Positions 26,982-36,328 of a stretch of 64,000 nucleotides of DNA are shown piece by piece. How positions within the stretch are numbered: position 1 is the first letter of the stretch; the number at the start of each line of letters is the position of its first letter. Position numbers and translations under genes: made by a program. The DNA lies in contig MU004186.1 of the NCBI GenBank assembly GCA_010093605.1, positions 972,616 to 1,036,615 of the forward strand, in the 5' to 3' direction. Below the pieces are notes generated by a model. That model ran no database searches. It saw only the letters and a program-made list of their open reading frames with translations, and was not told where the DNA came from. The DNA comes from Lophium mytilinum (Eukaryota > Ascomycota > Dothideomycetes > Mytilinidiales > Mytilinidiaceae).

Positions 26982-26984
26982 TTA

Positions 26985-27038
26985 CCGGATTCCAACCTCG
27001 GACTTGCTCTCATCCCCCACTGTCACATTTCCGATATG
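26985..27038 (-). repeat. IGNV motif copy 2 at the HeLo-like C-terminus
   Basis: Encodes HIGNVTVGDESKSEVG plus two residues, the last of the protein. Related to the copy at 27081-27128 and to the NLR N-terminal motif at 28568-28636. Confidence 0.55.
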
Positions 27039-27080
27039 CTGCCTGCTCACAAGCTGCAGCTCCAGCACACTCTTCGGCAT

Positions 27081-27128
27081 GCCCACATGCGAAACTGCGC
27101 CTTTCCCCACATTAACGTTACCAATCTG
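27081..27128 (-). repeat. IGNV motif copy 1
   Basis: Encodes QIGNVNVGKGAVSHVG, separated from copy 2 by about 14 residues. Confidence 0.55.
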
Positions 27129-27931
27129 CTGGTCCAGTTTCACGGACTCCAGTGTCTCTGACGCTCGATCGGATGCAGCCACGAAGTCAGCGCAGATTTC
27201 GGCTTGCAAGCGAAGCTCTTTCGCGGTTGCGTCCGCAATATCGGGATCAAGATCCACGTTCTCATCCACCTCTTGAGCTTCTGCTAGAACGTTCTCTCGC
27301 TCCTTCTGCGCATTGTCTTTCCACGCAGATAGTGTGCTTTTGATCTGGGCCATTTCCGTGGCTTTATTGGACTCAGATTTTTGCGGGTCATGGCGCCATA
27401 GAGATTTCCTAGTCACCCCGTTAGCATTCTTCACTTATGAAAGTATGGCTAACAAGCGATTACTCACACCGTGAGAATACTAAGAGCAAACTCAAGTAGC
27501 TTTTGCGTTGTCCGTATCTGCGAGACGTGTCGTTCGATCTTTGCCTTGTTATGACGGACGGTCATCCTGCTTCGCCAACTCCCTATACCTCTCTTCATCT
27601 ACTGCTCAAAGTTTGATACAAGGCTCTTGCAAGCTGCGTCGCAATCGTTGAGGGCCTTCGCTAGGCCAATATCGTTGAGGTCTTTCTGGGTAGCCTCGTC
27701 TGCACTTTTCAAGACAGAGAGGCTTCTCAAGCACGGTTCCAATCTTTCCAGTTCGGTTCGAATATCTCCAACTTGCTGTGGCACATCTTGTAAATCCTTG
27801 ATGTACTGGTACAGCGCGTTGATGCCTTTTAGACCCACATCCGCAGTTCCGATAATCGCTAAAGCTTCTCCAATCCCCGCCATTGAGAGTTTTGCGAGGA
27901 TTCTATACAGCACCGGGGTTAGACTCTTCAT

Positions 27932-28530
27932 ACTTTCTTTCCACCTCTACAGGTGGATGCTCTTGCGAGGTAGAGGTCAATGAACACCACCAACTTACGT
28001 CCTCTTCTCAGACCCGGGGTCACAGCAACGACTCTGCGTCGTTGGGAAGCGCCGGGACAAGAGTCTCTGTGATCCTGGACGCCAATGTTTGAGGTCCTTG
28101 TTGCGTCTTCAGGAATCCAGTCGAGGTGTAATAACCAAGACAACGCAAATAAGATCGGCCTCGAAGAAACTTGATCGACTTGCGTTTGGGTGCTCGTAAG
28201 GACAATACTATGATCAAGCGATCTTTCCCAGTAGAACTAAGCCGAGCTTTTTCCGGCACTTGAAGAAGCTGCTTCCGCCTGATGTGGCCGCTCCGCCTGT
28301 GGATTCAGCTCAGCCCCGAGTCGCGAAATGTGTAAAGTGGTTTCTGCTGATACGCTCGATGCCTGTTCTTCATGCCGATCCATGTGCTAGCGTCCTTTAT
28401 ATGAGCCACCTCACAACAGCTTTCCCGCCCTAGACGAACGACCCTACCTACAACCCCCTCGCTGTGGTGAAGCTCGACCATTATATCTCCGCCCGAGTGT
28501 TCCTATCCAGAAGCGGAGTTTTGGCAAACC
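27932..28530. other. Divergent spacer between HeLo-like and NLR genes
   Basis: About 600 bases expected to hold both promoters. One plus-strand frame is open from 28391 into the NLR motif exon but lacks an in-frame ATG. Confidence 0.4.
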
Positions 28531-31524
28531 ATGTCGGCAGATCAAAAGGGCACATGAGCCGATAAGTCAGACGGTAGGCAACGTGACAACTATTAGTGCA
28601 GGTGCACACACGGAGATTAAGTTAACACTGGGCGACCAGAGTAAGGCCATTCACTCGCCTCTGCTGCGAATCGCGCTGAAAATGGCTAATTCTCATAGCT
28701 GCGAAACGTCAGACTCTTCAGAAATGGTTTGCACCTTGGCTATTCGATGGTGATAGTACGAGTCGGACACAACCGGATATCCTGGAAGAGCGTCGAAGTC
28801 TATCCGCTTCAGGGTGCGGTACTTGGCTCACGGAAGGCGTTCTGCCTGAATGGCTAAGATCTAGCAATGATTCTCTCTGGCTACACGGGAGTGTGGGATG
28901 CGGCAAAAGCATACTATGCTCTCAAGTAATTGGATACTTTCAAGAACGTCTGGGATCTGATATCACACCTACGCACCATCTTGTGGTACCGGCCTTTTTT
29001 GCATTTGACTTGAAATACACGCATCTCTCGGGTTTTCTAGCCCGAACACTGCTCGCAAAGCTATGCGCACTTGAGCATGTCCCCCTCGAGATCGAAGAAG
29101 CGTACCAATCTACTACATCTGCCTCGAATCTTGTCAATATCGCCGCAATAGTCAGGAATATATTGGCTGAACTCAACGAGGACGCCGTACAGAAGACATC
29201 AAGCCTAAGCACTATCAAGAAGAAGCCTATCAATCTCGTTCTCATCCTCGATGCTATTAACGAGATACCGGAGGAGCGACAGCAAAGAAATCTTCACTTC
29301 ATAAACCAGCTTGTTCGTATGAACGGCGATGGCCAGCAGATTCGTTTACGCATGTTGCTATTGAGCCGTAAAAATCCCATCATACAGCATCATTGTGCGC
29401 CAGAGCAAGGATGGCAGCATACGTGCATTCCGAAAAGGGAAGTTCATGGTGATATACGGACAGCGGTGCAAAGTCGGCTTCGTCGTCACCGGAGCTTGCG
29501 CGAAGACAGCAGGGCAAAGGCAGGAGATGCCGTCAATTCTGAAATCTTGGAAAAGGCAGGCGGAATACAAGTAATACTCATCTTTTGGATGCTCATTGGC
29601 TAACGAATACAGATTTCGCCTTGCGGGCTTGTACTTGGACGAGATAGACCACAAAATACAACAGTAGAATGTAGTCATCGACGAGTTCCGTTCCTTGATT
29701 GAGAGCATGCCTACCGGTCTCGACCAGTTCTTGTTGGATGAAAAAGCACACCCCGCCTAAGATTAGGGGGACCGGAAAATAAGCGATATTATAACACTCC
29801 AACAGTTCTACCATAGTATCCTGAGCAAGATTGAAGACGAGACCTTGCGCCGACATATCGCCCATGCGCTTCGCTGGGTGCTGTGTGCAGCCAGACCTCT
29901 GCTGACGGAAGAATTGGTCGAGGCCTGTGCGATGCTTCATCAGCCTCACGAGCGTCTGGCGCTAAGGCTGAGTCACGACGATATCTTCGATCCTCTTAGT
30001 GGACTGCTCACAATTTAATCGTCATTGAAGGGCAAACGTGCTGTGCGCTTAGCACACGCTTCTGTTGGCGATTACCTGGGTAGGTTGTACCAGATGGAGC
30101 AAAACATCTTGAAAGACTGGAGCATGGAGGCTTCTTTCTTCTCGCGACACGAGGCGCACTTCCAGCTCACCAAATATTGCTTCGCCTATCTTGTATATGC
30201 CTTCGAGGCTCGAAATGAAGACATAGTAGTCGATGAAGGCGATGGGCGCGCCGCCGTAGATCTGGATGGTCACAGCGATCTGATATCTAGGTTTCCAATG
30301 CTGGAGTATGTGCTATCCTGTTGGTCCTACCATGCGGCATCTCATATTCAGGATTCTGCGCAAACCTGGCGGCAACGCCTCATCTCGTCCGACATTAAGG
30401 AATCGATCCAAAGTCGAAAGACGGTGCTCAGAAACGGGGGCTTCGATCTTTCGTTTCTTTGGAATTTTATCGTGCTCTTGATGCTATGGTCTTTTCGGCT
30501 CATAGCGGGTAAACTCTTGCAAAGCGCAATCTACACAGAGCTCGACTCAGTCTCCCTGCTCGCATTGGAGCGTAGGACATCAAACTCATCCAGGGCAGGC
30601 CTAACTTATCGCAAATGCCCTCAGCTTAATAGTTTCCTACTCTCACAAGTGAAACGTATCGCAGATTCTGCGTTGACTCGTGGGCAGCAAGATGCTCTCT
30701 TTGCAAAGGCATTACGCTCTCCGAATGCTGCCTTCGAGTCAGTCTTTGGCGATCAACTTCACTTTGGTATCGGATTTGACCAGTACCCCAGAGCTTCAAG
30801 ACTCCTCGCTATCCATCCCTCGCAAGACCCACGCTCACACGTTTCATGCAGCTTAGTCACCGACTCCCTAGAAAATTTGGCACAGTACGAGTTCGTTTCC
30901 TCCGAATAGGACAACCTGGATCAACACGAACTAAGTTACGTCAACGGTCGAGCTATAGAGATCAGGACGAAGACGCCTGCTAAAGCCTTGCGCCGCTTAC
31001 GTCGAGCCTCCGATACTCGCGTGGTCTGGTTCGGTCCAATCTGTAAGAGCGATGAAAAGACTTCGCTGCTCAATTCGATGGCGATCGTGAAGAGGCTTAA
31101 TGACGACCGATTAGCACTTGCAGAGGAGTTTGAGGACTACTTCGCAATCACAAGGAGGCTTTGGGACTACTTACCATTCGGTGAACTGACAGTGACAATG
31201 AGTGTCACTGAACCCATCAAGATGTCGGACGACTTGGAACTTTTCGAACTAATAAAGTATGCCACTAGAACCATCATGTGGAAGGATCAAGATCAAATGA
31301 TGCGCCTTGAAGATCACTCTGAGTCTACAGTCACGAAATCTATAGAGCCTAGGCAGTCATCCGCAATGGACTTTCCAGTGGGCTTTACAGACAGATCCCC
31401 GCCTGTCGAGAAACCTCGACCTAGCAGAAAGGCGCCGTACAGCTTACGCAACACACTCCTAAGCCTCCTCTTATATACCGCCTTTCTGACTATGGTCTAT
31501 GTATTCGTAAACGCACTCTCTTGA
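28531..31524 (+). pseudogene. NACHT-type NLR (STAND) gene, multiply disrupted
   Basis: An N-terminal exon carries VGNVTTISAGAHTEIKL (28568-28636 with flanks). A 58-base intron (28640-28697, GTAAGG..CATAG, phase 1, branch GCTAAT) joins it to KRQTLQKWFAPWL, the usual linker before fungal NACHT domains. The P-loop GSVGCGKS is at 28887-28910 and Walker B LVLILDAINEIP near 29235. The winged-helix region LRWVLCAARPLLTEELVEAC is near 29870. The frame is broken by TAG 29664, TAA 29758, TAG 29764, TAA 30016 and TAG 30907, and by a one-base shift at the intron near 29571-29612. Between the breaks the sequence stays family-like and even ends with a hydrophobic segment, LSLLLYTAFLTMVYVFV. No intact ATG is in frame with the motif; 28531 is the nearest, out of frame. 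NLRs of this kind sense non-self and trigger partner effectors. Confidence 0.8.
28568..28636 (+). other. Candidate amyloid-type signalling motif of the NLR
   Basis: The frame QTVGNVTTISAGAHTEIKL then LTLGD lies directly before the NACHT linker. It shares (I/V)GNV(T/N) and an alternating polar/aliphatic pattern with the two C-terminal motifs of the HeLo-like protein. The role is inferred from architecture. Confidence 0.45.
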
Positions 31525-33673: not shown

Positions 33674-35290
33674 GGCGAGACACTAGAACTGATGGAAACG
33701 AGTGATGATTTCTGGGAGGTGATCTTGCAACGCTGCGCAATGATGATATACAGCTCTGATATGAAGTCTAGGAGGTGGGCGACCTCACATGCCTACCGCG
33801 GGTTTCCGCTTGAGATTGGACCGATGCCAGTCGAGTGTCAAGCCTGCACAAAAGCCATCTCCGCGTAGCCCTTGAGAGAACCATATTTGTTGGACTATAG
33901 CCTGCAATTCAACCACATTCATGGGCTCAGAACAGCTAATGCACTCTTCTGAAGATGTATAATTAGCATAAGAGGCTGGCGGAGCGGGACCCGATGCAGG
34001 GGCGCAACCGCTGGCCACTGGCTTGCTGAGCATGATCGGAAATTGCAAAGGTCGGCAGCTGGTTTAGAGACATATCCCCGGTTGAAGACTACCATGTCAG
34101 AAGCACGTGAATGCTGCAGGTACATTATGACTCGCGACCCGTGTGAATGATGGGCATCGCGGGGATGCACTCCAAATGCTCCACATACACACGGTCTAAT
34201 TCAACGTGCCCTCGGCAACTACTAGATCCCCACCTGGAGTTACCCGGGTGATTGCATGTATAGGGTGACCTGTGCTTCAGCGGTAGTGCTGTGCTTTCCA
34301 TGGCTACGGGGCCGAGTTGCTGGAAAAGGCCAACTTTTAGACGACATTTCTGGCCCCGGTGCGTCGGTTTGAACACGACCGAGCAGCATGTGAGAGAGGC
34401 AAGATTCCGATGAGAATATTATTTGAGTTTGCGCAATGCGTTTGGTGATGGATGGTAGTTGAAGATACTGTAGCTGTGTACATAGGTAGTGCTATTAGGG
34501 GCCCGGGCCGCTTCCGTCCCGTTCCGACCTCGGACGAGGAGACGCTTGGGGCATCATCCATTCCCTCCTTTCTTTCCATCCTCCTCATTGCCCTATCTTT
34601 CGGAGACTTCGAGGGGCATGGGCCTGACATCCTCGAGATGCCATACTTCGCCTTTCGTACGCGGAGATCATGGTGAGTAAAAGTAGACGGTATCTGTTAG
34701 AACATCAGCGTACGCACCTTTCATGAGCTCGCAGCGCTTCCGCCATGGGACTCCAATGTACGAAAACTTTTCGTGCTACAGAAAATTCCTTCACTGATTT
34801 TCACTTTGAACTTCAGAGGTTCGGGCGATAGAATCAGCGAATAGAGCTTCCAATTGCTGCCAGGCAACCAAGATGCTTCGTATGTACGACCCTCGCGCAC
34901 GAGTCCTTGAAAAGCAATATCTCTAGGTCTTTGGATAAGGCTTAGAATCTAGAGACTCATCATTCGAGGACCTCAAGCAGTGGTAGACGAGTATGCAAAT
35001 ATCTGTATCGCAGTCTTCTATCGTTCTTGCTCCCAAAAATACTCGCTCTCGAAGCGTACTGCCTTAATTTCGGTCTCCAGAAGGTTACTGCCCACTGAAC
35101 TCATGCCGCCGAGCCCGGACACTCAATCTACCTCTTCTGCCCTTCCTCGCCATTTTCAACCTCATCATCAATCGTCAGCAACCATCTTCCAATCGCTATA
35201 AAAACCTGCAATCGCTATCCAAGCTATCAGTTGCTATCCGAGCTATTAACTCGCATCCTGATCCATCATTTACTCATTAAACCACACATC
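33674..35290. other. Long intergenic region, nothing recognised
   Basis: 1.6 kb divergent spacer. A minus-strand frame at 34033-33785 (82 codons, Cys-containing) and several others have no recognisable motif. Confidence 0.45.
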
Positions 35291-36328
35291 ATGGTCACCA
35301 CACCGTCCATCACCACTATTCGTAGCCGAAGAGCGGTTTCTTTGCTTGTCGATGACCTCACCCATACGCGGAACAGGAAGCCAGAGCTCTTTCTCGACGT
35401 CCAAGGCACCGATTTCTGCATTTACGATGTCGGCGTCATAACTATCTTCTTGCCTGCGAGGGACCACGTATACACTATTTTTGTCGACGGCCCTGCGACT
35501 TTCTCATACCCCGGCAAAGACGGCACAACGATCAAAGGTCTTCTTGAAGATCCCACTCTCTGCAAAGGCTTCTTCGATGTTCGCAAAGCTGCCAACGCCC
35601 TCTATCGTCATTTCGGCATCACCCTCCAAGGCGTCATGGATATCCAACTAATGCAATGCTCGCTGCAAAAGTGGAAAAATAATTCGCTAAGAACCTTGCT
35701 CAGTCTAGGGGACTGTGTCGAACGACAACTCCCAATAGTGGGGCCCGACGTGAAGCAGATGTGGAGAGAGACAGCAATCAAGGCGAGCCATGAGCTGATT
35801 CGGGACAAAGGAGGCATGGAGATGGCGTGGTTCACTGCTCGCCCACTACCAGTTGAAATGCGGAAATACACGATGCAGCAGGTGCAGATCTTGGCGATGC
35901 TCTGCGAAGACTATTGGCAAAGAATGGACGACAAACAGAAGGATTTTGTGTTCGTCAGGTCTTCGGAGGTAGTGATGAAGAGCCTGAAAATAGAACGCAA
36001 TGTTGCCGAGGAGGTGGAAAGGTTGTTACCGTGGTGGGAGAGTGGGAAAGCCGAAAGTGACGTCGCCGAATTGCAGGCTAAACCTCCACGCACGATGAAC
36101 TGGACGGAGACCGAATACAAAACGGACCTGTTTACTAACAGGGCTACGGAGATTGAAGTGCCTGACTCAAAGCTGATTAAAAGATTCAAGAGTGGTGTAT
36201 TTCGACCAAATGAAATGGTCGATACTCCACAGAAGCCGATTCCACCCAGCGATCCAGGCTCAAGTGGTGGAAAGAGTGTTCAGTTCTCGACGCCTTCGTC
36301 ATCGACAGACATTCAGACTCCTTTGTAG
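35291..36328 (+). CDS. EXD1-like 3'-5' exonuclease-fold protein, catalytic residues lost
   Basis: A single exon of 345 residues from the ATG at 35291; the upstream frame to 35231 starts without a good ATG context. The stretches ELFLDVQGTD (about residue 32), KGLLEDPTLCKGFFDVRKAANALYRHFGI (given here only by its ends, residues about 82-110) and LQGVMDIQLMQ match fungal RNase D-like/EXD1-like proteins, usually written LDLEG and FFDVRNDSDAL. Here the first acidic pair reads D-V-Q instead of D-x-E, and the second Asp-containing motif reads RKAANAL instead of RNDSDAL. Two of the expected metal ligands are therefore missing and the protein is probably a binding scaffold rather than a nuclease. The C-terminal about 60 residues are Pro/Ser-rich. 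Confidence 0.65.
   Translation: MVTTPSITTIRSRRAVSLLVDDLTHTRNRKPELFLDVQGTDFCIYDVGVITIFLPARDHVYTIFVDGPATFSYPGKDGTTIKGLLEDPTLCKGFFDVRKAANALYRHFGITLQGVMDIQLMQCSLQKWKNNSLRTLLSLGDCVERQLPIVGPDVKQMWRETAIKASHELIRDKGGMEMAWFTARPLPVEMRKYTMQQVQILAMLCEDYWQRMDDKQKDFVFVRSSEVVMKSLKIERNVAEEVERLLPWWESGKAESDVAELQAKPPRTMNWTETEYKTDLFTNRATEIEVPDSKLIKRFKSGVFRPNEMVDTPQKPIPPSDPGSSGGKSVQFSTPSSSTDIQTPL

Follow-up and report, generated by a model that had tools for sequence, protein, structure and literature searches.

Within a 64-kb stretch of the Lophium mytilinum genome (the window throughout; contig 6, 972616-1036615), two divergent genes lie ~0.68 kb apart: a minus-strand gene for a protein with a HeLo-like domain (PF17111), here called the effector, and a plus-strand gene for a NACHT-type NOD-like receptor (NLR). 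The effector ends in two copies of a short motif, r1 and r2, and the NLR carries a candidate third copy, r0, ahead of its NACHT domain; both genes are interrupted. We read the locus as what is probably a decayed amyloid-signaling pair of the HET-s-related amyloid motif (HRAM) type. Searches covered the 43.2 Mb of the source genome in its 24 contigs, to which all fungal comparisons of our own are confined, and statements about published systems follow excerpts of the papers cited. The genome's spliceosomal introns, together with its PF17111 and NACHT proteins, would suit a filamentous fungus. PF17111 is called PigL_N in current Pfam and is termed HeLo-like in PMC9815663. The features of the locus, in window coordinates, are these:

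26982-27408 (-), effector exon 2 with the tandem motif; stop codon TAA at 26984-26982
26985-27047 (-), motif r2, SRQHIGNVTVGDESKSEVGIR; 7 of 8 HRAM features; ends at the C-terminus
27075-27137 (-), motif r1, LDQQIGNVNVGKGAVSHVGMP; 6 of 8 HRAM features
27409-27467 (-), effector intron, 59 nt, canonical GTGAGT...GCTAAC...TAG, phase-matched, with a branch-like site
27468-27883 (-), effector exon 1 with the PF17111 HeLo-like domain; ATG at 27883; interrupted by an in-frame TAG
27599-27601 (-), the in-frame TAG, codon 95 of the effector frame, inside the HeLo-like domain
28391-28640 (+), open frame of the NLR 5' exon; upstream stop at 28388
28562-28639 (+), NLR motif r0, ISQTVGNVTTISAGAHTEIKLTLGDQ; 8 of 8 HRAM features, given a 5-residue insertion
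28641-28698 (+), NLR intron 1, 58 nt, phase-matched, with a branch-like site
28699-29570 (+), NLR exon 2, linker and NACHT domain (NPHP3_N, E 9.4e-18)
29571-29613 (+), probable frame break, with a 42-base intron-like stretch GTAATA...ACAG at 29571-29612
29614-31524 (+), NLR 3' part in one frame; five in-frame stops before the final TGA at 31522

Exon 1 of the effector matches PF17111 over the cut-off (E 6.5e-7), and a genome-wide search with the same family returned it at E 1.7e-6 as a match containing one TAG. The effector intron falls at the end of the PF17111 region, a position shared with the effector of a second pair on contig 5. As read, the frame has 280 codons, below the 310-residue limit used for HRAM effectors, and its tail repeats QIGNVNVGKG as HIGNVTVGDE in a register of 30 residues. 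Exon 2 also drew a weak Pfam match to Orbi_VP5 (E 4.7e-4, below the cut-off), which we read as a coiled-coil-like chance match. In the NLR, the corresponding VGNVTTISAG starts at 28574 (+), directly before the NACHT linker, and exon 2 has further matches below the cut-offs to NACHT (E 8.1e-4) and AAA_16. The 3' part of the NLR (29614-31524) gave a sub-threshold winged-helix match and no repeat family; its C-terminal portion, 30019-31524 (+), has no Pfam match up to E 1, and the stretch 30019-30909, searched in the same genome, matched itself alone. Within 30019-31524, hydrophobic stretches around the midpoint and at the extreme C-terminal end resemble membrane anchors. An earlier sequence-only reading of this DNA had described the motif copies, their positions, the divergent layout and the phase-matched 58-base intron, all of which are as it stated.

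To what kind of motif do these copies belong? The same reading had left the motif unmatched to HRAM, sigma or PP. We scored the copies on eight features drawn from text statements of PMC4518210, in which positions 3, 15, 16 and 18 serve as subfamily cues. That paper describes the HRAM as 21 residues long, with glycine at position 19 and, in general, hydrophobic residues at 5, 8, 10, 16 and 18, with some exceptions (threonine sometimes at 10; glutamine at 18 in HRAM4 and at 16 in HRAM5), a preference for arginine or lysine at 15, and asparagine, glutamine or histidine at 3 according to subfamily, glutamine being the residue in HRAM2. The loop between repeats spans 6 to 18 residues in 154 of 155 proteins, and in 98 of the 155 an adjoining NLR carries one N-terminal copy (PMC4518210). 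HRAM effectors are HeLo, HeLo-like or sesA proteins of less than 310 amino acids with two C-terminal repeats.

Set against these rules, all three copies have glutamine at position 3 and hydrophobic residues at 5, 8, 10 and 18 (threonine at 10 in r0), and they share a G6-N7-V8 core, with T9 common to r0 and r2. Glycine 19 is present ungapped in r1 and r2 and in r0 once the insertion is granted; lysine 15 is present in r2 and r0 and absent from r1. The register of 30 residues leaves a loop of 9 between r1 and r2, within the HRAM range, and position 12, among the sites for which charge complementarity is reported in HRAMs (PMC4518210), holds lysine in r1 and aspartate in r2, opposite charges. The locus likewise has the PF17111 domain, the length, the C-terminal tandem and an adjoining NLR with one N-terminal copy, although that NLR is broken and its start was not found. 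Positions 3, 5, 8, 10, 18 and 19 and the repeat spacing thus fit the HRAM rules, with position 16 misfitting in the effector copies, and where the earlier reading saw no match to HRAM, sigma or PP, a match to HRAM is most likely. Read in translation by eye, the effector tail and the NLR N-terminus lack the PP core NxGxQxGxN; the PUASM pattern FxGxGxQxxGxGxF is absent from the translations read, and the effector is a PF17111 protein, not PNP_UDP (both patterns from PMC9815663). The sigma motif, of ~40 residues with threefold repeats of two submotifs (PMC5485727), is, compared by description only, unlike the tandem 21-residue units found here.

The core of the motif, Q-x-[IV]-G-N-V, occurs three times, all at the locus, in 158,311 amino acids of stop-free six-frame segments from 55 sources, a set that excludes 30 loci retrieved through the motif's own DNA pattern. 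The likeness of the two tail copies (7 of 10 residues identical) was equalled in 8 of 20,000 shuffles, and a score of 8 of 8, the score of r0, is attained by one of 38,039 windows across the open six-frame segments of the 64 kb, with gaps from -2 to +6 allowed. A strict rule for the tandem found one place, the effector tail of the window, in 215,123 amino acids from 83 sources. A relaxed rule, with alanine allowed in the core and position 3 required, found two tails only, those of the window and of contig 5, in 217,313 amino acids from 84 sources; because the contig-5 tail was already known when this rule was set, the contig-5 match is not independent evidence. As a protein query against the whole genome, the effector tail matched itself alone.

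That contig-5 tail belongs to the protein that, within this genome, is the best relative of the window effector in its HeLo-like domain (29% identity, E 0.0016). Its gene lies on the minus strand (L011 1084-2022), with a divergent NLR on the plus strand from about 2328 on (the surrounding segment, L084, is contig 5, 1499300-1505500). The contig-5 effector has an uninterrupted frame of 295 or 296 amino acids, depending on two adjacent splice sites; the two stops inside its PF17111 match fall within its intron. The tail units, QKIKGIKASQNSSALAG and QDISNVTADNRSFAAAG, stand 29 residues apart. The NLR combines NPHP3_N/NACHT with WD40 repeats (E 8.7e-94), and its frame is open, given one 48-base intron, over the stretch fetched. 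Its N-terminus, IHNTSATEGSQTFAGI, shows 4 of 8 HRAM features and may carry a weak copy of the motif, for which a fixed-register test gave 18 of 20,000, post hoc. The tails of contig 6 and contig 5 are alike to a degree reached by 2 of 400 shuffles, or by 21 of 2,000 on gapped score. The two pairs resemble each other in the PF17111 effector with its intron at the end of the domain region, in the tandem (29 residues against 30 in the window) with Q3 and G19 in both copies, and in the divergent NLR; the contig-5 pair differs in its uninterrupted frames, WD40 repeats, alanine-rich core and poor NLR-side copy. The sequence-only reading had allowed that the motif might prove a common linker of PF17111 proteins without any NLR pairing. 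No such linker emerged: among the 30 PF17111 matches listed, examined in this one genome with ~1.5 kb of flank each, two have the tandem, and each of these two is divergent from an NLR.

Both genes are interrupted in the assembly, a point absent from the sequence-only reading: the effector by one stop, the NLR by five stops and a probable frame break, with no start found. Behind the effector TAG (27601-27599), family-like sequence goes on in the same frame. The NLR stops are TAG 29665, TAA 29758, TAG 29764, TAA 30016 and TAG 30907, and between the stop at 28388 and r0 there is no in-frame ATG, those at 28401, 28531 and 28554 lying in other frames. Removing 29571-29612 as an intron puts the next NLR-like segment out of frame. 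We found 11 in-phase alternatives across this point; among the eight listed, two have a branch-like site (for example 29571-29643) and all eight delete the NLR-like segment 29614-29664 wholly or in part. Since such alternatives exist, the frame break is probable, not certain. Separately, two of the stops lie in 29725-29809 (+), flanked on each side by CAGTTCT (the two copies are 78 bases apart), in a stretch that breaks an NLR-like segment and may be an insertion or an unrecognized intron.

Could the two genes still work as they stand? The stops might be removed by unrecognized introns, RNA editing or readthrough, or be assembly errors, and several features speak for this: one TAG alone breaks the effector frame, which is otherwise intact and has a canonical intron; long NLR-like stretches survive in the NLR; in-phase GT-AG stretches span each stop; and the frame break could be an unrecognized splice variant. 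We tested candidate introns around each stop (in-phase, GT-AG, 40-160 nt) for a branch-like site, which both accepted introns possess (the 59-nt intron of the effector and the 58-base intron of the NLR). None was found in the 12 candidates able to skip the effector TAG, nor in the 6, 22, 20, 8 and 15 same-frame candidates at the five NLR stops in order, whereas the same test, applied as a control to the one stop that lies in frame in the contig-5 NLR, returned a 48-base intron that is canonical and has a branch site. Five stops and a missing start in the NLR are also too many for one-codon readthrough or scattered errors. We therefore consider it quite unlikely that the genes still work. Because the NLR frame is stopped repeatedly and the effector stops at codon 95, the pair has most likely lost its function in this assembly, and it is best read as a fossil or a null allele. 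Of the amyloid-signaling module proposed earlier, the architecture stands, with two C-terminal copies on a HeLo-like effector and one N-terminal copy on the divergent NLR, which is the published HRAM arrangement; a working module is unlikely here, with both genes interrupted. As a source of the stops we considered mutation resembling repeat-induced point mutation and rejected it: in TpA/ApT and in the composite index, neither gene falls outside the range seen elsewhere in the window. Stops per codon are about equal in the two genes (1 in 280 for the effector, 5 in roughly 950 for the NLR) and therefore do not tell which gene was lost first.

Several observations weigh against the HRAM reading. 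Position 16, generally hydrophobic in HRAMs, is serine in r1 and r2 (leucine in r0); r0 needs its 5-residue insertion; and r2, which closes the protein, lacks the aromatic or diglycine segment often present behind HRAMs. The plain identity between the NLR copy and the tail, 5 of 8, is weak alone, being equalled by 131 of 5,000 shuffles and reached by 53 of 1,410 window segments, a few of which are the locus itself, and the gapped score of r0 against the tail was reached in 50 of 2,000 shuffles. A degenerate DNA pattern fitted to the three copies matched the genome 33 times (17 forward, 16 reverse), against 34 matches for its reversed control (24 and 10), and is thus no commoner than chance. 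Three of the 33 are the motif copies of the locus and one lies inside the PF17111 exon; among the rest, with the context of 30 of the 33 loci read, we saw no effector tail or NLR N-terminus. The contig-5 effector and NLR have no clear motif in common (gapped score reached by 694 of 2,000 shuffles, best unguided match by 57 of 400). Searches of PDB by sequence and by a three-row profile gave no match, and an AlphaFold2 model of the 59-residue tail alone was uninformative (mean predicted local distance difference test score, pLDDT, 50.4). Finally, nothing at the locus matches PF11558; a genome-wide search with this family was also empty, as were control genomes, so its absence is not demonstrated. 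The miss at the locus weighs little, because only 38 of 155 HRAM proteins match PF11558 in PMC4518210, where many HRAMs share less than 10-15% identity with HET-s.

From such points one could argue that the motif forms a family apart from HRAM, sigma and PP and seeds with a specificity of its own within the same effector/receptor architecture; the G6-N7-V8 core in all copies, the serines at 16, the insertion in r0 and the PF11558 miss would suit this. We think it unlikely, since G19, Q3, the hydrophobic positions 5, 8, 10 and 18 and the tandem with its loop of 9 are retained, and the low family-match rate and identities of accepted HRAMs mean that divergence does not amount to exclusion. The resemblance might instead be due to chance, in which case the tail would be an unrelated linker beside a decayed NACHT protein of the ordinary kind, as the decay of both genes, the weak plain identity of r0 to the tail and the insertion would allow. 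This is very unlikely: in the 158,311 amino acids scanned the core is confined to the locus, r0 sits N-terminally before the NACHT linker with a score that one window in 38,039 attains, and on contig 5 another HeLo-like effector, divergent from an NLR, has the same tandem design. The case for r0 as a candidate copy is carried jointly by its core, its place ahead of the NACHT linker and its fit to the HRAM rules, not by overall identity. With these considered, a decayed HRAM-type HeLo-like/NLR pair is the reading we favor as probable.

Published HRAM pairs have the same arrangement, including divergent transcription in het-s/nwd2 (PMC3321046, PMC4518210). Among the nearest known systems is HELLF/FNT1 of Podospora anserina (HRAM5; PMC7889193), in which a HeLo-like effector of 277 amino acids, against 280 codons here, has two C-terminal pseudo-repeats and an adjoining NLR gene. 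HELLF is intact, and its solenoid and prion behavior have been demonstrated experimentally, whereas the window pair differs in having Q3 with a G-N-V core, S16 in r1 and r2, and both genes broken. At 17% identity, HELLF and HET-s have nearly identical solenoids (PMC7889193), so low identity to HET-s is to be expected. HET-S/NWD2 (HRAM1, also P. anserina; PMC3321046) shares the divergent neighbors, the effector tandem and the single N-terminal copy on the NLR, and it offers a precedent for a decayed receptor beside an effector, as nwd2 is inactivated by a transposon in all het-s isolates analyzed in PMC3321046. It differs in its HeLo domain, the window effector being a PF17111 protein without a PF11558 match, and in the means of decay, a transposon there, stops and a probable frame break here. 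PP systems (HELLP/PNT1; PMC7889193) also pair an effector and an NLR through a common amyloid motif, yet their NxGxQxGxN core and single copy on the HeLo protein are both missing from the window locus.

By analogy with HET-S/NWD2 and HELLF/FNT1, an intact version of the pair would be expected to act by amyloid templating, membrane attack and cell death. The NLR would sense a ligand and oligomerize through its NACHT domain, whereupon the N-terminal r0 motifs could stack into a beta-solenoid seed. That seed would template the tandem r1/r2 of the neighboring HeLo-like protein, and their conversion would release the helical bundle of the HeLo-like domain, which would then attack the membrane of the cell itself.

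On its own, the locus leaves the picture of fungal amyloid signaling unchanged and adds a probable member to the known HRAM kind. A pseudogenized HRAM-type pair alongside an uninterrupted relative in one genome does provide a case for asking whether the receptor or the effector is lost first, an order left open for het-s/nwd2 in PMC3321046. There, loss of one partner is suggested to orphan the other, and PMC10197012 places such losses in a pseudogenization model of allorecognition. We also entertain, as a rather improbable extension, that Q-x-I-G-N-V stands for an additional HRAM subclass that seeds with a specificity of its own, the locus being a HeLo-like counterpart of het-s/nwd2; were this so, either one partner was orphaned when the other was lost, or the window holds a null allele of a polymorphic incompatibility locus whose intact alleles occur in other strains. 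The contig-5 pair suits experiments better than the window pair, and a rule derived from the text of PMC4518210 is able to find divergent candidate tails that PF11558 misses.

Other HeLo and NLR loci occur in the same genome. On contig 20, at about 746-751 kb (L077 1321-2274 (+) and 417-28 (-); L083 739-2901 (-)), a HeLo protein (PF14479, E 1.1e-51) with a PP-like tail, NNTGFQLGSNSG, adjoins a divergent NLR-type tetratricopeptide repeat (TPR) protein, upstream of which lies a PP-like frame, SGSSNQGLQVGHNPG; this is probably a PP-motif pair, the frame being joined to the TPR protein by a putative splice. On contig 1, at about 637-642 kb (L029, L041), a PF17111 match 1.4 kb from the best non-self NLR match was considered as a paralogous amyloid pair and rejected, the locus consisting of two divergent NLR genes. 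Each of these has its own N-terminal HeLo-like domain, and the plus-strand one has ankyrin repeats. In the window itself, the genes flanking the pair on each side are an AMP-binding gene and a GMC oxidoreductase, with family matches well over the cut-offs, and at 35099-36328 (+) a 409-codon open frame has a sub-threshold match to DNA_pol_A_exo1, a 3'-5' exonuclease family (E 1.4e-4).

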